Positions 6,817-24,871 of a stretch of DNA of 34,607 nt are shown here, piece after piece. The notes under the pieces are model-generated. The model was not told where the DNA came from. It was given only the letters and a program-made list of their open reading frames with translations, and searched no databases. The stretch's first letter is position 1. Each line of letters begins with the position of its first letter. This stretch comes from Methanobrevibacter sp. Lineage in GTDB: Archaea > Methanobacteriota > Methanobacteria > Methanobacteriales > Methanobacteriaceae. Location of the stretch: the NCBI RefSeq assembly GCF_017468685.1, contig NZ_JAFUHT010000008.1:1-34607 (forward strand), read 5' to 3'. Both the position numbers and the translations under genes were made by a program.

Positions 6817-8208
6817 ATGAACATGTATAGTTTTGTCATTTGTTTTGCTGCATTGGTGGTATCATATTTCATTTATGGGAAATTCATTGAAATGATCTCT
6901 GGTGTTGATGAAACACGCCAGACACCTGCATTTAAACTGCAGGATGGTGTTGACTATGTTCCAATGTCAAAATTCAAAAATTATTTAGTTCATTTTTTAA
7001 ATATTGCTGGTTTGGGACCTATTTTTGGAGCAATACAAGGTGCACTGTTTGGGCCAGCAGCATTCATATGGATTACATTAGGTACAATTTTCATTGGAAG
7101 TGTTCATGATTTCTACTCCGGATTCATGTCCATGAGAAATGATGGACTGACAATGCCGGGCATTATTTCAAAGTATTTGGGAAGTAAAATCCAAAAGGTT
7201 ATGGCAGTTCTTATTGTTGCTACTGGAATTCTTGTTTCAACCACTTTTGCAAAAGGAGCTGCGGATTTGCTCACAGTTCTAACCGGTATTCCAATACTTA
7301 TCTGGATAGTAATAATATTCATTTACTTTTTGGTTGCAACAGTATTTCCTGTTGACAAAATCATTGGAAGAGTATATCCGATTTTTGGAGCATTGCTTTT
7401 AATTATGGTTGTTATTATGACTGGAGCATTGATTTTAAATCCGGCATATAGTATTCCTGAGTTTACAACACAGGGATTGTATTTAACTGACAAAAGTATT
7501 TTTCCATACTTGTTTGTTACAGTAGCCTGTGGTGCTATTTCAGGTTTTCATGCATCACAATCTCCAATCGTTGCAAGATGCGTTGAAAATGAACGTGATG
7601 CAAGGCCAGTATTTTTTGGAGCAATGGTCTTGGAAGGTTTGGTTGCTCTTTGCTGGGCAGCAATTGCAATGGCATTTTTCCACGGACAGCCTCAACTTGC
7701 AGCAATATATGGTGCAACACCTTCAATTGGAGTCTATGAAATGGCAAATACATTAGTAGGACCAGTTGGACTGGTTTTAACCATTGTTGGTGTGGTGATC
7801 TGTCCAATTACTTCAGGTGACACTGCACTTAGAAGTTCAAGGATAACAGTAGCTGATGAGCTTAATCTCAACCATGAAAAAATAATTCCAAGACTTAAGG
7901 TAGCCGTTCCATTGTTTTTAGTGGCATTTGGGTTAACATTTGTTGATTTCAGTTTGATTTGGAGATATTTCGCATGGTCCCAATTGATCGTGGCTACAAT
8001 TGTATTATATGCTGCAAGTGCTTATCTGAGAAAAACTGAAAAACCATATATCGTTGCACTTCTTCCAGCTGTTGTGTGTACTTTAATTGCATTTGGATAT
8101 ATTTTCCAGGCTCCTGAAGGTTTCAGATTGCCTTCATTGATTTCAAATGTGATTTCAGTTATTGCAACGGCCATTGTGTCAATAATATTTCTTAAAAAAA
8201 TCAAATAA
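6817..8208 (+). CDS. cstA: CstA-family carbon starvation protein / transporter
   Basis: A 463-residue polytopic membrane protein with the CstA N-terminal domain: VSYFIYGKF near residue 16, NYLVHFLNIAGLGPIFGAIQ near 54-74, and GSVHDFYSGFMSMRNDG near 94-110. The FHASQSPIVARCV and CPITSGDTALRSSR segments are also characteristic of the family. E. coli relatives (CstA, BtsT) take up pyruvate and peptides; the archaeal substrate is not known. At 463 residues it belongs to the short form found in archaea and Gram-positive bacteria, not the ~700-residue enteric form. The ATG at 6817 is chosen (a second in-frame ATG is at 6823); neither has a good ribosome binding site. It stands alone, between a terminated adhesin gene and a convergent TPR gene. 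Pyruvate import would suit a por-encoding host (inference). Confidence 0.9.
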   Translation: MNMYSFVICFAALVVSYFIYGKFIEMISGVDETRQTPAFKLQDGVDYVPMSKFKNYLVHFLNIAGLGPIFGAIQGALFGPAAFIWITLGTIFIGSVHDFYSGFMSMRNDGLTMPGIISKYLGSKIQKVMAVLIVATGILVSTTFAKGAADLLTVLTGIPILIWIVIIFIYFLVATVFPVDKIIGRVYPIFGALLLIMVVIMTGALILNPAYSIPEFTTQGLYLTDKSIFPYLFVTVACGAISGFHASQSPIVARCVENERDARPVFFGAMVLEGLVALCWAAIAMAFFHGQPQLAAIYGATPSIGVYEMANTLVGPVGLVLTIVGVVICPITSGDTALRSSRITVADELNLNHEKIIPRLKVAVPLFLVAFGLTFVDFSLIWRYFAWSQLIVATIVLYAASAYLRKTEKPYIVALLPAVVCTLIAFGYIFQAPEGFRLPSLISNVISVIATAIVSIIFLKKIK

Positions 8209-8223
8209 ACTATTTAATAAGCG

Positions 8224-8251
8224 ATGAAGGAAATTTATTCTTCATAATTTT
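8224..8251 (+). terminator. Weak terminator hairpin after cstA
   Basis: ATGAAG at 8224-8229 pairs with CTTCAT at 8240-8245 and is followed by AATTTTT, 16 bases after the cstA stop. The stem is only 6 bp, so this is tentative. Confidence 0.4.
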
Positions 8252-8309
8252 TGTGATGAGTTAAAAAAAGATTGGATCTGGTAATAATATTCTCATAAAA
8301 AATAGGTGT

Positions 8310-8343
8310 TTGGTGTTTAATTTGGAGGAGATTTAAACACCAA
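8310..8343. terminator. 11-bp hairpin with T-runs on both sides
   Basis: TTGGTGTTTAA (8310-8320) pairs perfectly with TTAAACACCAA (8333-8343) around a 12-base loop. On the plus strand a T6 run follows at 8347-8352, and on the minus strand T6 follows as the complement of 8297-8302, so it can terminate in both directions between the convergent cstA and TPR genes. The loop is GGAGGAG on the plus strand and CTCCTCC on the minus strand. Confidence 0.6.
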
Positions 8344-8494
8344 GTGTTTTTTGGAAAATTATATTTGGCAGATTTTTTTAATTTTCCAACGACTTGTATC
8401 AAATTAGTAAATTGTGAAAATCTAATTTGACAGATTTTTATATTTTGGAGATTGTATTATTATTTGACTAATAATGTGTTTGTATAAGTGATTA

Positions 8495-8510
8495 TTTAGG
8501 TGTGCCTAAA
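8495..8510. promoter_or_regulatory. Iron-box-like operator, downstream of TATA
   Basis: TTTAGGTGTGCCTAAA, inverted TTTAGG/CCTAAA arms with 4 central bases, resembling operators of DtxR/IdeR-family metal regulators. It lies just downstream of the start predicted from the minus-strand TATA box at 8545-8552. The same motif is found before feoB, which supports an iron link (inference). Confidence 0.6.
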
Positions 8511-8544
8511 TTCATGTCACTTGTATAAAAGTTGGTTGTCATAG

Positions 8545-8552
8545 TATATAAA
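8545..8552 (-). promoter_or_regulatory. TATA box for leftward transcript
   Basis: Minus-strand TTTATATA inside ACATTTATATA. The same 11 bases precede the tRNA-Leu gene in this window (18236-18246), a promoter that can hardly be doubted. Transcription would run away from the TPR stop codon toward the three hairpins. It sits between two iron-box-like palindromes. Confidence 0.55.
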
Positions 8553-8564
8553 TGTTTCTAAATT

Positions 8565-8580
8565 TTTAGGCATGCCTAAA
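8565..8580. promoter_or_regulatory. Iron-box-like operator, perfect palindrome
   Basis: TTTAGGCATGCCTAAA is a perfect 16-bp palindrome directly abutting the TPR stop codon (8581-8583). Being at the 3' end of that gene it is unlikely to control it; it lies 12 bases upstream of a minus-strand TATA box. The motif is shared with the feoB upstream region. Confidence 0.65.
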
Positions 8581-9588
8581 TTAATGGTATCCCATATATC
8601 TCAAAATTACATATAATATTAAAATAATTATCAATATTATAATTGAAGTCCTGGCTGAAAAAAATCTGGTTTTTCTGAATTCCTCATCTTTGACTTCACC
8701 TTTTTTCATGATTCTTTCCTTTTCGAAGGAACATTTTTGATAAATCATTTCCAAATCATTTGGAAGTCTTCCATGTTCATTTAACATGTTTATGGTTTTA
8801 TTTAAATATTTGATGGCTTCCTGTTCGTCATCTAATTTAACACAACAGAAAGCGGCTTTGTAGTTAAAATTAGTAACCAATTCCAAATCATCTTCGATTT
8901 TGCTTTCATAGTTGATACAGGTTTTATAGTTTTTCAATGCATCCTTATACTGCTTCAAATCATACAGTGCATCGCCTTTTGCATTAAAACCGATGATTGT
9001 ATCTTCATTTTGAAGTGACTTGTCCAAGTACTCAATTGCTTTTTCGTTTTTGCCGGTCTTTTGAAGCATCTGTCCTTTATACAAATCGGATTTTTCATCA
9101 CCGCCGAACTGGTTTTCATAAGTATTTAAATTGGATAATGCATCATCATATCTTTTTGCCTGAATTAAAAGCTCAATTTTTCCAAGCAATACTTCTTTTT
9201 TGCTGATACGTGGTTTTTCGATTTTTGAATAAGATTTATATTTGTCAAGAGCTTTATCCATAAGCTCTATTGCTTCATCAATTTTTCCTTTATTGAATCT
9301 GGATAATGCCTTGTCGCTTATTACATTGATTGAACGAGGTTGCTTTTCTAGATATTGATCAAAATACTTTTCACCATAATCTCCATTGTCATGGCTTTTG
9401 TCATAATATTGGTAATACATTCCCTTTTCTTCAACTGCAAGTAAGTAATCAGCATCAATTAATAAATCTAAAATGGTCAAATAATCTTCAACATCATCTT
9501 TTCCATGTCTTTTTCTAGCTAATTTAAGAGCTTCCTTACAATTATTATCTTCAATGTATTTTTTGGCGGTTTCGATTGCATCACTCAT
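8581..9588 (-). CDS. Tail-anchored TPR protein
   Basis: 335 residues. About five tetratricopeptide-like helical pairs are visible between residues 90 and 270, for example ALSRFNKGKIDEAIELMDKA, GDALYDLKQYKDALKNYKTC and AAFCCVKLDDEQEAIKYLNK. A single hydrophobic segment of about 18 residues (IIILIIILILYVILRY) sits at the extreme C terminus, which suggests a tail-anchored protein with its TPR scaffold in the cytoplasm. No enzyme motif is present. The gene is divergent from feoB and shares its promoter region, which holds two iron-box-like palindromes; a TATA-like sequence (minus strand, about 9628-9641) lies close to the start. This suggests co-regulation with iron uptake. A partner role at the membrane, possibly with the Feo system, is only a guess. 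Start: ATG at 9586-9588, no strong ribosome binding site. Confidence 0.85.
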   Translation of the reverse strand: MSDAIETAKKYIEDNNCKEALKLARKRHGKDDVEDYLTILDLLIDADYLLAVEEKGMYYQYYDKSHDNGDYGEKYFDQYLEKQPRSINVISDKALSRFNKGKIDEAIELMDKALDKYKSYSKIEKPRISKKEVLLGKIELLIQAKRYDDALSNLNTYENQFGGDEKSDLYKGQMLQKTGKNEKAIEYLDKSLQNEDTIIGFNAKGDALYDLKQYKDALKNYKTCINYESKIEDDLELVTNFNYKAAFCCVKLDDEQEAIKYLNKTINMLNEHGRLPNDLEMIYQKCSFEKERIMKKGEVKDEEFRKTRFFSARTSIIILIIILILYVILRYMGYH

Positions 9589-9672: not shown

Positions 9673-9707
9673 ATTTAAATATTATAAAATACAATAAAAT
9701 AATATGT

Positions 9708-9721
9708 TTAGGTTAACCTAA
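9708..9721. promoter_or_regulatory. Iron-box-like operator B upstream of feoB
   Basis: TTAGGTTAACCTAA is a perfect 14-bp palindrome and close to the bacterial DtxR/IdeR consensus. It falls at the transcription start predicted from the TATA-like sequence near 9680-9689, where a bound repressor would block initiation. Confidence 0.75.
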
Positions 9722-9750
9722 TTTTTTGTTTATGGATTAGTGAACTTAAA

Positions 9751-9828: not shown

Positions 9829-11847
9829 ATGACAGAATTAATTGTAGGATTAGCAGGAAACCCGAACGTGGGTAAAACTACAGTTTTCAACAGATTAACC
9901 GGTATGCGCCAACATGTAGGTAACTGGCCTGGAAAAACTGTCGAAAGGGCAGAAGGTCATTTCAAACATGGAAGCTATGATTATGATGTTATCGATTTAC
10001 CGGGTAATTATGCATTAAGTGCTCATTCTATGGAAGAAATCGTATCAAGAGATTTCATCGTAGATGATGATTCTGATGTAATTATTAACGTAGTTGATGC
10101 TGCTAACTTAGAACGTAACTTATATTTAACAGTTCAAATGATGGAATTAGGTGCTAATTTAGTAATGGCACTTAACATGAACGATTTTGCAAAGAAAAAA
10201 GATCACATCATTGATATTAAATTGATGAGTGAACTTTTAGGATTCCCAGTTGTTGAAATTAACGCAAAAACTGGTGACGGATTTGATGAATTATTAAACA
10301 CTGTTGAAAAACAGGCTGCAAATCCAATCGATTCAAGTGCAAAATTAGCTTATGGTGATGAATTAAGAGAACACCTAGGAGAATTACAGGCACTTGTTGA
10401 AAAAGACAATAATTTATTGGATGTTCCTTCAGTATGGACTGCAATTAAATTATTGGAAAGAGACTCAATTGTTATAGATAAAGTGCAAAAATCTTCTCAA
10501 AGTTCTGCTATAATGTCTGAAACTGATAAGGTAGCAGGTCACCTTCAAGGCATTTTTAATGAAGGTGCAGAAGAAGTTATTGCAAATGCAAGATATGCAT
10601 TCATTGGTGGATTAATGACAGAAGCCGTTAAAAGACCGGCTGTTGAAAAAGAAACTACTACTGATAAAATTGATAAAATTGTTACAAACAGAATTTTAGC
10701 AATTCCAATTTTCATTGTTATCATGTGGGCTATGTTCCAGTTCACATACACTATTGGTGCTCCATTCCAGGACATGATTGATGAAGCATTTGGAATGTTA
10801 GGTGAATGGGTTGCAGGATTTATTGCAAACGAATATTTAGCTTCCTTCATCTGTGACGGTATCATTGGTGGAGTAGGTGGTGTTCTTACTTTCTTACCTA
10901 TTATTATTCTAATGTTCTTGTTCTTAAGTATATTAGAAGACTGTGGTTACCTTGCAAGAGCAGCATTTACATTAGATAAAATCATGCACAAATTAGTAGG
11001 TCTTCACGGAAAAGCATTTATTCCTATGATTTTAGGATTCGGTTGTGGTGTACCTGCTATTATGGCTACAAGAACCATGGAAAACGAAGGGGACAGAATG
11101 TTAGCTATGATGCTCGTTCCATTCATGTCTTGTACTGCAAGATTACCAATTTATGCTATTTTTGTTGCAGCATTCTTCGCTGAAAATGAAGGTACTGTAT
11201 TATTATCAATTTATCTATTAGGTATTGTTGTGGCACTTATTGTTGCAGCTATCCTCAAAAGAACTATGTTTAAAGGATTATCCACTCCATTCGTTATGGA
11301 ATTGCCTACTTACAAAGTACCATCTGTAAAAGGTATTTTATTACACACTTGGGAAAAAGTAAAAGGATTCTTAAGAAAAGCAGGTACTATTATTCTTGCT
11401 TGTTCCATTGTATTATGGGCTTTAAGTATCTTCCCATTAGGTGTAGAATACGGATCTGCTGAAAGTGTATTAGGTATGATTGGTAGCGTAATTGCACCAA
11501 TATTCGCTCCTTTAGGATTCGGAACCTGGCAAGCTGCAGTAGCAATCATTGCTGGTTTAGCTGCTAAAGAGGTAGTAGTAGCAACCTTCGGTACATTAGC
11601 TGGTATGGAAGAAGATGATGAAGACGGTATTACTCAGTTAGTACATGATACATTCACTCCATTATCTGCATTCTCATTCATGGCATTTACCTTATTATAC
11701 ACTCCATGTTTCGCAGCTATCGGTGCTATCAAACAAGAAACCAACAGTTACAAATGGGCTTTAACCATGTGTGCTATTACATTAGTAACTGCATATATCG
11801 TTTCCTTCTTGATTTACAATGTTGGTCTTTTAGCAGGATTTGGATAG
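9829..11847 (+). CDS. feoB: Ferrous iron transporter FeoB
   Basis: 672 residues, full length for the family. The N-terminal GTPase domain has G1 GNPNVGKTT (10-18), G3 DLPG (56-59), G4 NMND (116-119) and a G5-like NAKTGDG. It is followed by a helical linker and a polytopic membrane domain with two Gate regions and the FeoB signature stretches CGYLARAAF and [14 protein letters not shown]. It imports Fe2+ across the cytoplasmic membrane. The ATG at 9829 has GGGAG 8 bases upstream. feoA follows 163 bp downstream with its own promoter and operators, so the two are separate units. Two iron-box palindromes upstream predict repression when iron is plentiful. The strong, even codon use suggests high expression. 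Confidence 0.97.
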
Positions 11848-12292: not shown

Positions 12293-12487
12293 ATGAAATG
12301 CAGAATGTGTGGTTTTGAATTTGATGAAAATGAAATTGAAAACCGAGGATGTTCCAGTTGTGGAAAAAGTAACTGTAACAGTTACCATTGCCCTAATTGT
12401 GGCTTTGCAAACTCACCAGAACTAGATCAGGAATTTGAATTTATTACAAAAATCAAAGACAAATTCAGAAAAAAATCAACAAATTAA
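12293..12487 (+). CDS. Small zinc-ribbon protein downstream of feoA
   Basis: 64 residues. CRMC near the start, CSSC in the middle and CPNC near residue 34 give three CxxC knuckles, enough for one or two zinc (or iron) sites, followed by a charged helix. Similar small Cys-rich proteins accompany feoA in related methanogens as far as I recall; the function is unknown. GGTG at 12282-12285 serves as ribosome binding site for ATG 12293. The stop codon (12485-12487) overlaps that of the convergent cbiO (12484-12486). It could deliver or sense metal in the Feo pathway (inference). Confidence 0.8.
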   Translation: MKCRMCGFEFDENEIENRGCSSCGKSNCNSYHCPNCGFANSPELDQEFEFITKIKDKFRKKSTN

Positions 12488-13323
12488 CTTTTTTTACTTT
12501 TTAATATTTCTTCAACAGTCTCATCAATACTGATTTTTTCAGTATCGACAGTTAATCCGTTTTCTTTTAATTTATATAATATTTCAGTTGTCACCGGTGC
12601 TTTTAGGTGAGCTTTTTTTAACAATTCCTTGTCTGAAAATATTTGGTGCTTGTCGCCTTCGGCAATTATCTCACCATTGTACAAGACAAATATCTTGTCT
12701 GCGAACTGATTGACCATTTCTATATCGTGTGATGAAATGACAATACTTATTCCTTCTTCATTTAACTTATTTAAGATATTCAATACCTTATCAACACCTT
12801 CAGGGTCAAGACCGGCAGTAGGTTCATCAAGAATCATTATTTCAGGCCTCATTGCAATAATTCCTGCAATGGCCACTCTTTTCTGCTGACCTCCACTTAA
12901 GTGGTGTGGGGTTTTATCCTCAAAACCAGACATTCCGACCATTTCAAGGGCCTCTGATATTCTGGATTTTACCTCATCATATTCTAAGCCTAAGTTCATT
13001 GGTCCAAAGGCCACATCCTCTTTAACTGTAGGTGCAAACAGTTGGTCATTTGGATCTTGAAACACAATTCCAACTTTCTGTCTGACTTTAAGTAGTTCAT
13101 CACGTTCAAAAATGATTTTTTCACCGTCTATCTCAACATGTCCGGATGTAGGTTCACTCAAACCGTTGAAATGAGAAAACAATGTTGATTTTCCTGCACC
13201 GTTAGGTCCCATAATAGCAATCTTTTCACCTTTTTTAATTTTGAGATTTACATTTTTCAAAGCTTGTGTTCCGTCAGGATAAGTAAATGATAATTCTTTT
13301 GTCTCTAAATGAATATGTTCCAT
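12484..13323 (-). CDS. cbiO: ECF transporter ATPase CbiO/NikO
   Basis: ABC ATPase of the nickel/cobalt ECF transporter, 279 residues from the chosen ATG. Walker A GPNGAGKST (39-47), Q-loop FQDPNDQLF (Q near 89), signature LSGGQQKR (142-149), Walker B MILDEP (E near 167) and switch His in SSHD (near 199) are all intact. The longer frame begins at GTG 13332, but that GTG is part of the sequence AGGTGG, which looks like the ribosome binding site for the ATG at 13323, so the ATG is preferred. The binding site also overlaps the cbiQ stop codon, so translation of the two is coupled. It powers metal uptake together with CbiQ and the M/N subunits encoded upstream. Confidence 0.95.
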   Translation of the reverse strand: MEHIHLETKELSFTYPDGTQALKNVNLKIKKGEKIAIMGPNGAGKSTLFSHFNGLSEPTSGHVEIDGEKIIFERDELLKVRQKVGIVFQDPNDQLFAPTVKEDVAFGPMNLGLEYDEVKSRISEALEMVGMSGFEDKTPHHLSGGQQKRVAIAGIIAMRPEIMILDEPTAGLDPEGVDKVLNILNKLNEEGISIVISSHDIEMVNQFADKIFVLYNGEIIAEGDKHQIFSDKELLKKAHLKAPVTTEILYKLKENGLTVDTEKISIDETVEEILKSKKS

Positions 13324-13332
13324 ATGTTCCAC

Positions 13333-14163
13333 CTAATTAATTGCTAAATTTTGTCCAAAGTAACCTAATTGTCCAGAATATTTAAATATGATTATTTCAA
13401 GTATTATAACGATAATAATTATTGAAATTAAATAAATATAATCACTTTTTTCAGGAGATTTCTTTTCATCAAACATTTCTGATGCGTCTGAAAATCCACG
13501 GCTTACCATACTTTTGTGAACTCTCTCTCCCTGCTCATATGCCTTTAAAAACATCATTCCAATAGTGTATCCAACTTGTTTTACTCTCCATTTATATGGA
13601 GTGTTTTTGGAGTGAATGCTGAAATTTCTTGATTTTTGACTTTTTCTGATTGCTGAGAGTTCATCAACAAACAGGAATAAGAATCGAACCATGATTGAAA
13701 GTATCATTGCTAAATCCCTTGGCATCTTCAGCTTTCTAAAAGAGCTTGCCATTTCCTGAAGGGGTGTTGTTGATGAATATATGATGATTGCAGTTAGGGA
13801 TACAATCATACGAACTAAAAGCAGTATTGCCCAATTAAGACCAAAGTCAGTAACATGCAACCATGAATAGCTCCATATTATATTTCCAGGCTGGATAAAT
13901 GGCTGAAAGATTATGATTGCTCCTCCAAAAGGAAGTAACATCAGTAATCTTTTGAGTGAATCGGTATATGATAAATCTGCTATTTTCAGTATAATCAATA
14001 GCATTATTTCCAAAATAATAGGTATGAATATTTCTTTTGATACAACACAGACAAGAATAATAAATATTGTTGAAATTAGCTTGATTCTACTTTCTAAATT
14101 ATGAATTGGACTATTTTTTGAAGCTAAATCATCAAATCGTATAATTTGTGTTATGTCAGGCAT
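13333..14163 (-). CDS. cbiQ: ECF transporter transmembrane protein CbiQ/NikQ
   Basis: 276 residues, polytopic, of the CbiQ/EcfT family. The coupling region with SFRKLKMPRDLAMILSIMVR and the Arg-Gly motif MVSRGF (near residue 220) matches the two ATPase-contacting motifs of EcfT proteins. The usual membrane segments lie before and after. It joins CbiO to the metal-binding M subunit. The gene lies 118 bp after the PDGLE gene, and a strong minus-strand terminator-like hairpin lies in that gap (14246-14284), so cbiQO may be made at a different level from the M and N subunits. The ATG at 14161-14163 is used. Confidence 0.94.
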   Translation of the reverse strand: MPDITQIIRFDDLASKNSPIHNLESRIKLISTIFIILVCVVSKEIFIPIILEIMLLIILKIADLSYTDSLKRLLMLLPFGGAIIIFQPFIQPGNIIWSYSWLHVTDFGLNWAILLLVRMIVSLTAIIIYSSTTPLQEMASSFRKLKMPRDLAMILSIMVRFLFLFVDELSAIRKSQKSRNFSIHSKNTPYKWRVKQVGYTIGMMFLKAYEQGERVHKSMVSRGFSDASEMFDEKKSPEKSDYIYLISIIIIVIILEIIIFKYSGQLGYFGQNLAIN

Positions 14164-14245
14164 GTTAATTCACTATTATAATATTAAAAATTAGTCATAT
14201 ATTATTATTTGCTTATGTCAATTTTATTAAATTTCAATTACTTTT

Positions 14246-14284
14246 AAAAAAAGAAAAAATAGAAATTAAAAAATTTAATTTCTA
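14246..14284 (-). terminator. Terminator/attenuator between nikN and cbiQ
   Basis: A perfect 9-bp inverted repeat TAGAAATTA (14260-14268) / TAATTTCTA (14276-14284) begins at the stop codon of the PDGLE gene. On the minus strand it is followed by two long T runs (complement of 14246-14259). This is the strongest-looking terminator in the cluster, although cbiQ and cbiO lie beyond it. Confidence 0.65.
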
Positions 14285-14581
14285 CTTTTTAACGATGTAT
14301 GCAACACCGAATCCTAAAACTAATGTTACCAGTACTCCAATCACCAAGGCTACAATTTGTAGTGGTTGGCTGTCTGGATCACTTGCGAATGCATAGTCAG
14401 GGAATGCGGCATCAGGAATTCCGTTGATTTCTTCTATTGAGAAATCTTCAGCTAATCCTGAATCTTCAGCTGATTTTTCGAGTCCATCCGGGTCACCAGA
14501 CGCAATGTATGGTGAGAGTACACATATTACAACACAGATTACAATAGCAACAACTATCAACATGATGTCTTTTTGTTCCAT
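14282..14581 (-). CDS. PDGLE-domain N subunit of Ni/Co ECF transporter
   Basis: About 99 residues with two membrane segments (near 5-23 and 75-95) and the PDGLE motif (DPDGLEKSAED) in the extracytoplasmic loop, as in CbiN/NikN-type small subunits that assist the M component. An earlier in-frame ATG at 14590 lies directly against the sequence AAGGAG with no spacing, whereas the ATG at 14581 is 9 bases from GGAG, so 14581 is preferred. The gene overlaps or abuts the end of the M-subunit gene (stop 14583-14585) and is surely co-translated with it. Gene name left open because CbiN and NikN cannot be separated with confidence. Confidence 0.88.
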   Translation of the reverse strand: MEQKDIMLIVVAIVICVVICVLSPYIASGDPDGLEKSAEDSGLAEDFSIEEINGIPDAAFPDYAFASDPDSQPLQIVALVIGVLVTLVLGFGVAYIVKK

Positions 14582-14582
14582 A

Positions 14583-15215
14583 TTATGCATCTCCTTGATT
14601 CCATGCGAGTAAATCTGGTCTAAATTTATCTAATGCCGCAAGAACGATTACAGTTAATACTGCTTCGATTATTCCAATAAAGAAGTGGTATAAAACCATT
14701 GATGGGATACCAATGTTCATTGGGAATGTTCCTGCGATACCCATTTCAATAGCACATGCTAATGCTGCAATGACTGTTGCTAACCATGCTGCAACACCTG
14801 CTGCAGGGTATTTTCCGATTATTCCTTTTAATCCTTTGAAGGTGTATAATCCTACAAATCCTCCAATGATTGCCATATTCAATACGTTTGCTCCTAAAGC
14901 AGTAATTCCTCCGTCACCAAAGATTAATGCCTGGATGAGGAGTACTACAGTAAATACTAGTACGGCAGCTTCAGGTGCTAAAAATACAATAGCGACTAAA
15001 GCTCCTCCAACCATGTGTCCACTGGTACCAAATGGTATTGGCATGTTCATGGACATGATTGCAAAAATACCTGCTGCGAGTACTGCTAAAAGAGGAATAC
15101 GTTTTTCGTCTAAGTTGGATCTGGCCCATTTTACAGAGAAGTATAATGCAACGATTAATATTACATAATATACTAAACATTGTGCAATAGGTATAAATCC
15201 GTCAGGTATATGCAA
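14583..15215 (-). CDS. cbiM: Nickel/cobalt ECF transporter substrate-binding subunit (NikM-like)
   Basis: 210 residues, seven hydrophobic segments, CbiM/NikM family. The protein begins MHIPDGF, and His67 lies in TSGHMVGGA. In the nickel protein NikM2 the metal is held by the N terminus, His2 and His67; all three positions are kept here, and MHIPDG is the form I associate with nickel while CbiM proteins for cobalt usually start MHIMEG. Nickel is therefore the more likely substrate, which suits a methanogen (hydrogenases, F430). The start codon is TTG (15213-15215) with GGAGG 7 bases upstream; the conserved N terminus leaves no other choice. TAATAC/GTATTA half-sites flank its TATA box. Confidence 0.93.
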   Translation of the reverse strand: MHIPDGFIPIAQCLVYYVILIVALYFSVKWARSNLDEKRIPLLAVLAAGIFAIMSMNMPIPFGTSGHMVGGALVAIVFLAPEAAVLVFTVVLLIQALIFGDGGITALGANVLNMAIIGGFVGLYTFKGLKGIIGKYPAAGVAAWLATVIAALACAIEMGIAGTFPMNIGIPSMVLYHFFIGIIEAVLTVIVLAALDKFRPDLLAWNQGDA

Positions 15216-17776: not shown

Positions 17777-17793
17777 TTTTGTTGATGAAATTA

Positions 17794-17852: not shown

Positions 17853-18206
17853 ATGATTTTTAACAAGACTGTATCCATAATTCTATCAGGTTTATTTTTC
17901 TTATTTTTGGGATTGTTGTTTTCAACAATTTCTGCAATGTTTTTACATGGAGGATTGCTTCCAGTAGTCGGTATTGTAATATTTGTAATTTTTTACTTTA
18001 TTACAAGGATGTTTTATAATTATCTGAGAAATGATGATAAATACAAGAATACTCGTCAAAGATCCAGTGATGTGCCTGGTGAAAAATATCTGATTAAAGG
18101 TGAATCAGATCCTAAGAAGGTATTTATTGTAATATGGGTTATTGTGATATTAATATTGACTTCAGTTTCACTATGGTTATATTCATTTAACAATGGTTTG
18201 GTTTGA
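17853..18206 (+). CDS. Small membrane protein with three predicted helices
   Basis: 117 residues. Hydrophobic segments at about 7-30, 34-55 and 90-111, with a charged stretch rich in Arg/Lys/Asp (56-88) between the second and third. I do not recognise the family. The ATG at 17853 follows GGTG with 7 bases between. An iron-box-like repeat covers its predicted transcription start, so it may belong to the same regulon as feoA and feoB and could have a part in metal handling (inference). It ends 69 bp before tRNA-Leu. Confidence 0.75.
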   Translation: MIFNKTVSIILSGLFFLFLGLLFSTISAMFLHGGLLPVVGIVIFVIFYFITRMFYNYLRNDDKYKNTRQRSSDVPGEKYLIKGESDPKKVFIVIWVIVILILTSVSLWLYSFNNGLV

Positions 18207-24336: not shown

Positions 24337-24858
24337 TTATCCCATCTCGTAAGCTTTTTTAGTAGCTTCGGCATTTAATTCTCCAATTTTTCCAGGGAAT
24401 GTTTCTTTAATAACTTCAAGAAGGGAATCGATACTTACTACTCCAGTTTTTTTAGCAAAGTATCCTAGGATAATTGTATTTACAATGTTACGTCCTAACA
24501 TATCTAATGCGATACCTGTTGCATCAATATCGTGAACTTTATGTTCTCCACTACCTTTAAATTCGGTAGTATTAATAATTACTTCTGTATTGTCTTTAAT
24601 TCCTGAAAATACATCTACCACATTTAATAATCCGTCATCTAAAACCAATACGTAGTCTGGGTTGTAGACTTGGTATCTCATTTGGATTGGCTCATCATCA
24701 ATTCTTGTGAAAGCCATAACTGGAGCTCCTCTACGTTCAACTCCAAAGAATGGGAAAGCTTGAACAGATTTTCCGTCTTTAAATGCAGCTTTTGCCAAAA
24801 TTTCTGCGGCGGTAACGGAACCTTGTCCACCTCTACCATGAAAACGAATTTCAATCAT
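24337..24858 (-). CDS. porG: Pyruvate:ferredoxin oxidoreductase gamma subunit
   Basis: 173 residues. The start [20 protein letters not shown] and the [19 protein letters not shown] segment are signatures of the gamma subunit of 2-oxoacid:ferredoxin oxidoreductases. It is the first gene of porGDABEF, with the strong ribosome binding site GGAGGAG (plus-strand 24864-24870) 5 bases before the ATG. A minus-strand TATA-like TTTATATATTT lies at about 24908-24918. The binding site is complementary over nine bases to the loop of the candidate small RNA at 8297-8522. Confidence 0.96.
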
Positions 24859-24862
24859 TAAT

Positions 24863-24871
24863 TCTCCTCCA
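24863..24871 (-). promoter_or_regulatory. porG: porG ribosome binding site, possible sRNA target
   Basis: Minus-strand TGGAGGAGA. It is the exact reverse complement of TCTCCTCCA in the third loop of the candidate RNA (plus-strand positions 8323-8331). Pairing would hide the Shine-Dalgarno sequence. The complement of an SD is partly generic, so this is suggestive only. Confidence 0.4.

Follow-up and report, generated by a model that had tools for sequence, protein, structure and literature searches.

Iron-sparing small RNAs (sRNAs) are known from bacteria, among them the Fur-controlled FsrA of Bacillus subtilis. For archaea, no iron-responsive trans-acting sRNA was found in the literature that we searched, and in a review (PMC5867862) the sole entry on this theme is an antisense RNA opposite a ferric uptake regulator gene in Pyrobaculum. 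The best match in mode of action to the locus described here is IsrR of Staphylococcus, a Fur-controlled iron-sparing sRNA that is conserved genus-wide (PMC9410917). FsrA likewise spares iron and binds the Shine-Dalgarno (SD) sequence via a C-rich motif (PMC9410917), while RyhB and PrrF are repressor-controlled RNAs that are made at low iron and shut down iron-containing enzymes (PMC9410917 and general knowledge). Among methanogens, sRNA154 and sRNA41 of Methanosarcina mazei mask ribosome binding sites (RBSs), sRNA154 by means of a loop (PMC5867862).

Here, we analysed a window of 34,607 nt from Methanobrevibacter sp., the window being the whole stretch of DNA under study, and found in its cstA/feoB region a structured RNA of ~220 nt, which belongs to a family with several copies per genome. 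We regard this family as probably a DtxR-controlled, iron-sparing group of trans-acting sRNAs that mask the RBSs of Fe-S enzymes. Compared by described features, it resembles IsrR in its promoter with a pair of metal-repressor boxes, in its three stem-loops, in its C-rich single-stranded regions directed at the SDs of Fe-S enzyme mRNAs (binding that is predicted here) and in its conservation in one genus (PMC9410917), but differs from it in the archaeal host, in operators of DtxR type and not Fur type, in the presence of several paralogues in each genome that vary in loop 3, and in that its function is predicted. The other bacterial systems are more distant, as FsrA needs three protein chaperones, whereas RyhB and PrrF depend on Hfq and have no C-rich loop set against the SD. 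In contrast to the present family, sRNA154 and sRNA41 are nitrogen-regulated, target glnA2 and ACDS and come from another methanogen order, and they are not described as multicopy families with different loops (PMC5867862).

Table 1. Coordinates of the RNA, its control elements, its neighbour and its predicted target in the window.
Feature	Position	Strand	Basis or remark
DtxR-type palindrome box 1 (TTTAGGCATGCCTAAA), upstream of TATA box	8565..8580	-	kept in nearly all family copies
Archaeal TATA box TTTATATA	8545..8552	-	sequence; near-invariant in 54 copies
5' hairpin of RNA (ACAAGTGA ... TCACTT), contains DtxR-type box 2	8486..8524	-	fold, alignment
DtxR-type palindrome box 2 (TTTAGGCACACCTAAA), also 5' hairpin stem	8495..8510	-	kept in 48 of 50 copies
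Conserved segment S1 ATACAATCTCCAAAA	8443..8457	-	CTC invariant in 50 of 50 copies
Hairpin 1 (GTCAAATTAG ... CTAATTTGAT), conserved loop CACAATTT	8398..8431	-	12 family pairs, 7 with compensatory changes
Hairpin 2 (TTGGAAAATTA ... TAATTTTCCAA), conserved loop ATCTGCCAAA	8351..8389	-	folds in nearly every copy
Hairpin 3 (TTGGTGTTTAA ... TTAAACACCAA)	8310..8343	-	fold and sequence; U-A to C-G and G-C to A-U changes
Loop 3, variable targeting loop (putative), 12 nt	8321..8332	-	holds TCTCCTCCA (8323-8331), porG RBS complement
T-rich 3' end (CTATTTTTTAT), likely terminator	8295..8305	-	sequence; end inferred
DtxR-type box, 1 mismatch, before feoB	9707..9722	.	sequence scan
feoB, ferrous iron transporter, conserved neighbour of window copy	9829..11847	+	TIGR00437, 673 bits (cut-off 316)
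porG ribosome binding site TGGAGGAGA, predicted target	24863..24871	-	TATGGAGGA invariant in 30 species
porG, pyruvate:ferredoxin oxidoreductase gamma, first por cluster gene	24337..24858	-	NCBIfam profiles

The RNA lies close to feoB, in a 372-bp gap that separates cstA from a TPR gene (Table 1), and its fold energy on the minus strand is -45.5 against -24.8 in shuffles (z = -6.0). In 54 aligned full copies, the order of elements is the palindrome TTTAGGNNNNCCTAAA, the TATA box, a second palindrome within the 5' hairpin, segment S1, hairpin 1, hairpin 2, hairpin 3 with its variable loop and a T-rich end, the tail TTATCTCTTTTT being present in almost all copies; in the window a second T run lies at 8261-8273. 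Across the family alignment, 98.8% of the helix cells are paired and double changes occur at 9 of 23 pairs, a level reached by none of 500 shuffles, and the cells with compensatory changes number 42 compared with 11.7 in shuffles. In hairpins 1 and 3, compensatory changes exceed both shuffled and slid controls by a clear margin. With its conserved fold and these changes, the family is a structured non-coding RNA. By alignment, loop 3 is the variable part of the family and is less well conserved than loops 1 and 2 and S1.

A BLASTN search with the 372-bp gap detected several related copies per genome in 35 of the 37 genomes belonging to the genus, and outside the genus it detected none. With a covariance model and Infernal's stricter filters, the family was detected in 62 of 67 Methanobrevibacter genomes and was absent from all 83 genomes of 18 other genera of the order (150 genomes in total), so that, as far as tested, it is confined to this one methanogen genus. 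Against Rfam 15, no hit in the region reached the gathering score, and for 8200-8600 there was none even at E values up to 1. This genome holds three full copies. The commonest neighbour of copies is feoB, which lies divergently in the nearest upstream position at 13 of 54. Tandem copies were also seen (L028:734-1717 in genome G009, L026, L041 and L031:2954-3444), with a run of three next to a rubrerythrin-like gene, and some copies at these loci are truncated, with boxes and TATA kept and hairpin 3 missing. Elsewhere in the window, a minus-strand cluster at 12484-15215 resembles a complete cobalt/nickel ECF transporter (cbiM, N, Q, O type).

The promoter region points to control by a metal-dependent repressor. 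DtxR-type palindromes are found in pairs at nearly every full copy, and similar boxes lie at feoB and at a dtxR-like gene. Transcription of the window copy would be expected to start at ~8520-8525, just upstream of box 2. The sequence TTTAGGNNNNCCTAAA occurs 15 times in the genome, seven of these at RNA copies, while a reversed control gave none. Boxes with at most one mismatch also precede feoB, mvhD, an Fe-S gene region and the sole gene with a DtxR C-terminal domain; the last of these boxes (one mismatch; L058:6212, contig C7 of G000) lies 57 bp upstream of the gene, which is probably autoregulated. This distribution has the pattern of a metal-homeostasis regulon with a putatively autoregulated repressor; DtxR regulons in archaea have been treated by Leyn and Rodionov (2015), taken here as cited in PMC11349517. 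Iron as the metal is suggested by the regulon. The repressor is closest to the MntR and DtxR models in NCBIfam, all of them below cut-off, so the metal could also be manganese. The boxes upstream of mvhD and of a ferredoxin/polyferredoxin region near formate dehydrogenase alpha (L117:838 and L062:13136) suggest that hydrogenotrophic enzymes, too, are under direct metal control. A further palindrome with one mismatch was seen at 17793 of the window, where it precedes the gene of a small membrane protein (17853-18206) by 45 bp.

Hairpin 3 is the third after the 5' hairpin and the last of the series, and its 11-bp stem is formed on the minus strand by the arms TTGGTGTTTAA (8343-8333) and TTAAACACCAA (8320-8310). 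An initial annotation had proposed that its loop is complementary to the SD of porG and that the significance of the match lies in its nine-base length and its presentation in a loop. We found both features: TCTCCTCCA (8331-8323, minus strand) is the exact complement, over nine bases, of TGGAGGAGA at the porG RBS, and in the folded 260-nt RNA its first base is unpaired with a probability of 0.78, the others with 0.98-1.0. The target sequence ends 4 nt before the porG ATG (24858, minus strand), which is preceded by TGGAGGAGAATTA, and porG itself matches NF006321 with 264 bits (cut-off 225) and NF040683 with 271 bits (cut-off 270).

The same annotation had called for the porG match to be compared with other RBSs, for which we used a sample of 1.07 Mb (47% of the genome; 80 contig stretches and the window) with 1031 home-made gene calls. 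Within 25 nt of the start, GGAGG lies upstream of 113 of these genes and GGAGGAG upstream of seven, and the full 9-mer TGGAGGAGA was found upstream of only two, porG and rpsJ (ribosomal protein S10); in the whole genome it occurs 29 times, counting both strands and the loop's own complement. As the 9-mer is rare among genes with GGAGG, the match to porG is better than that to most of them. The duplex of loop and porG has an energy of -17.8 kcal/mol, which ranks second of 1031, rpsJ scoring slightly higher, while the 16S tail pairs with porG at -10.0 kcal/mol; predicted target duplexes of loop 3 span -17 to -22 kcal/mol, stronger than this 16S pairing. With a composite loop 3, porG came first by rank product among 258 reciprocal best ortholog pairs of this genome and a second species. 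The contiguous pairing of the window copy with porG is only nine bases long, a length that 26 of 1743 background genes also reach at some point of the 60-nt region, and a lone 9-mer among the ~30 genes of one window has a chance probability of a few percent; it is the comparative evidence that carries the case.

For this comparison, 58 loop sequences were scanned, blind to function, against 1747 translation start regions, the background being two genomes only (47% of this one and 41% of the second) with starts called by a simple home-made rule. The longest perfect matches were to porG (up to 15 nt, four loops) and hdrB (up to 14 nt, 17 loops). The latter gene encodes CoB-CoM heterodisulfide reductase subunit B (TIGR03288, 492 bits, cut-off 345) and adjoins hdrC; Por and Hdr are both Fe-S cluster enzymes. 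Leaders of porG and hdrB were then gathered from 28-30 species and paired with the loops of their own genomes. Own-genome matches to hdrB span 10-13 nt in ten species: 12 nt in G000, G002, G026, G025 and both C-rich copies of G028, 13 and 11 nt in G006, 11 nt in G030, G003 and G036, and 10 and 11 nt in G016. Those to porG are 13 nt long in G006, G023 and G030, 11 nt in G017, and 9 nt in G000 and G011, and in the four species with 11-13 bases the pairing extends past the SD into TATATGG. Own-genome matches of at least 11 nt are equalled by 0 to 5 of 1743 background genes, and for 16 of 31 C-rich loops the match to their own hdrB or porG is equalled by at most three of 645 strong-SD genes. Complementarity to the translation start regions of Fe-S enzyme mRNAs, a hallmark of iron-sparing sRNAs, is thus present in this family.

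The loops also change together with their putative targets. Species with the hdrB leader TGAGGAGAGTTA have the matching loop TAACTCTCCTCA, while in those with a leader lacking the G before AGGAGAG (TTAGGAGAGTTATA) the loop is mostly TATAACTCTCC and the duplex is extended at its other end, so that 10-12 pairs with hdrB are kept in a shifted register despite the leader change. The four species with porG-type loops are scattered on the por gene tree and form no clade, which implies either retention of the porG match or its gain on more than one occasion; copies at orthologous loci do not count as independent data. Within single genomes, the three copies of G006 fit hdrB, porG and hdrB, and the second copy of this genome (contig C50) fits hdrB with 12 bases. 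The proposal of the initial annotation that porG is an iron-sparing target gains support from the operators of DtxR type that lie at the RNA, at feoB and at the dtxR-like gene, but has to be revised in that the main target of the family appears to be hdrB, not porG.

About half of the copies have loops with no match to hdrB or porG (CTAGTC, ACGTCGG and CTGCC types). One such subfamily comprises a copy on contig C75 of G000 (L032:2974-3242) and similar copies in G005, G018, G022 and G025, with the loop CTAGTCACTT either identical or replaced by ACGTCGG or TTCGTCGG variants; these loops hold no SD complement and several of the copies lie near gatB. The CTAGTC-type loop of the C75 copy found no 12-nt match in the sampled 1.07 Mb. 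A third candidate target of loop 3, mmp14 (methanogenesis marker 14), came third in the two-genome scan and was rejected, as elsewhere the match is kept only in G010; that it does not persist in the other species shows that the own-genome test can fail. We also considered S1 (ACAATCTCCAAAA) as the main targeting element and rejected it, since its enrichment for ferredoxin motifs is no better than that of same-core decoys and its hits are absent in the second species. Most of the RBSs that it matches best in this genome belong to Fe-S or hydrogenase-related genes (two polyferredoxins, Hcp, a NUBPL-type Fe-S carrier, HypC and formate dehydrogenase alpha), and S1 as a second anti-SD element would be a weak and statistically insecure lead. 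For loops 1 and 2, the duplex scan in two species gave no convincing target set.

Among other readings of these data, we find it unlikely that the family, although real and metal-regulated, uses loop 3 as a generic anti-SD sequence to reduce translation in general, hdrB and porG being merely the best-looking of many targets. C-rich loops do match SDs generally, rpsJ and other genes score equally high for some loops, and staphylococcal C-rich sRNAs act on G-rich SDs (PMC9410917). The matches, however, extend past the SD (into GTTATA in hdrB and TATAT in porG) and track leader changes within species, and about half of the C-rich loops outdo nearly all strong-SD genes, as given above. It seems still less probable that a metal-regulated RNA acts via a protein, for example by sequestration of an RNA-binding protein through CACAATTT, ATCTGCCAAA and S1, and that the loop 3 match is incidental. 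The greater conservation of these three elements and the lack of a cross-species target set for them would fit such a route, but it leaves the own-genome matches to hdrB and porG and the register shift unexplained; the two roles are, moreover, compatible, with a constant body for a chaperone and loop 3 for targeting.

We give very little weight to the idea that the hairpins are a terminator or the leftover of a mobile repeat between convergent genes, with the porG match arising by chance. The family is indeed multicopy, and the window copy lies between convergent genes with T runs on both sides, but promoter and operators are conserved, compensatory changes and conserved unpaired segments are present, and the place beside feoB is fixed in many species. 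Least credible of all, to the point of being negligible, is that the strand is wrong and that the plus strand, in which TTTGGAGGAGATTTAAACACCAAGTG has the SD-like run GGAGGAG before a GTG, encodes a small peptide: the order of TATA box, operators and T-rich end is throughout that of a minus-strand transcript, differences in loop length and content ignore any reading frame, and the fold z-score, -6.0 for the minus strand, is only -3.1 for the plus strand.

In the preferred reading, that of an iron-sparing sRNA family, a DtxR-family metal repressor would bind the two palindromes around the TATA box and start and keep the RNA repressed; at low iron the repressor would lose its metal and be released, and the RNA would be made. 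The C-rich loop 3 would then pair with the SD and flanking bases of Fe-S enzyme mRNAs, the window copy taking porG and the C50 copy hdrB, and this pairing would block 30S binding, so that iron is spared. Paralogues with the same body and different loop 3 would divide the targets among them. What the computation shows is a structured conserved RNA, promoter and operator sequences, an accessible loop and target complementarity kept across species; transcription of the RNA, its response to iron, direct binding to the targets and repression as the sign of the effect are predicted.

On the present sequence comparisons, we lean towards seeing here the first archaeal iron-sparing sRNA system, built of genus-wide paralogues, a DtxR-type repressor and an interchangeable loop, in which iron may tune heterodisulfide reductase and pyruvate oxidoreductase. 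If this is true, archaea have reached the same iron-sparing logic as bacteria by way of another repressor, with targeting loops that vary from one paralogue to the next, and the family offers a natural series of loop-target pairs for testing archaeal RNA targeting. Further, iron supply would act directly on heterodisulfide reductase, a core energy enzyme of methanogenesis, and would tune carbon assimilation through pyruvate oxidoreductase. As hdrB is central to methane formation in Methanobrevibacter, the main gut and rumen methanogens, iron supply would in that case be wired to methane metabolism at the level of translation.
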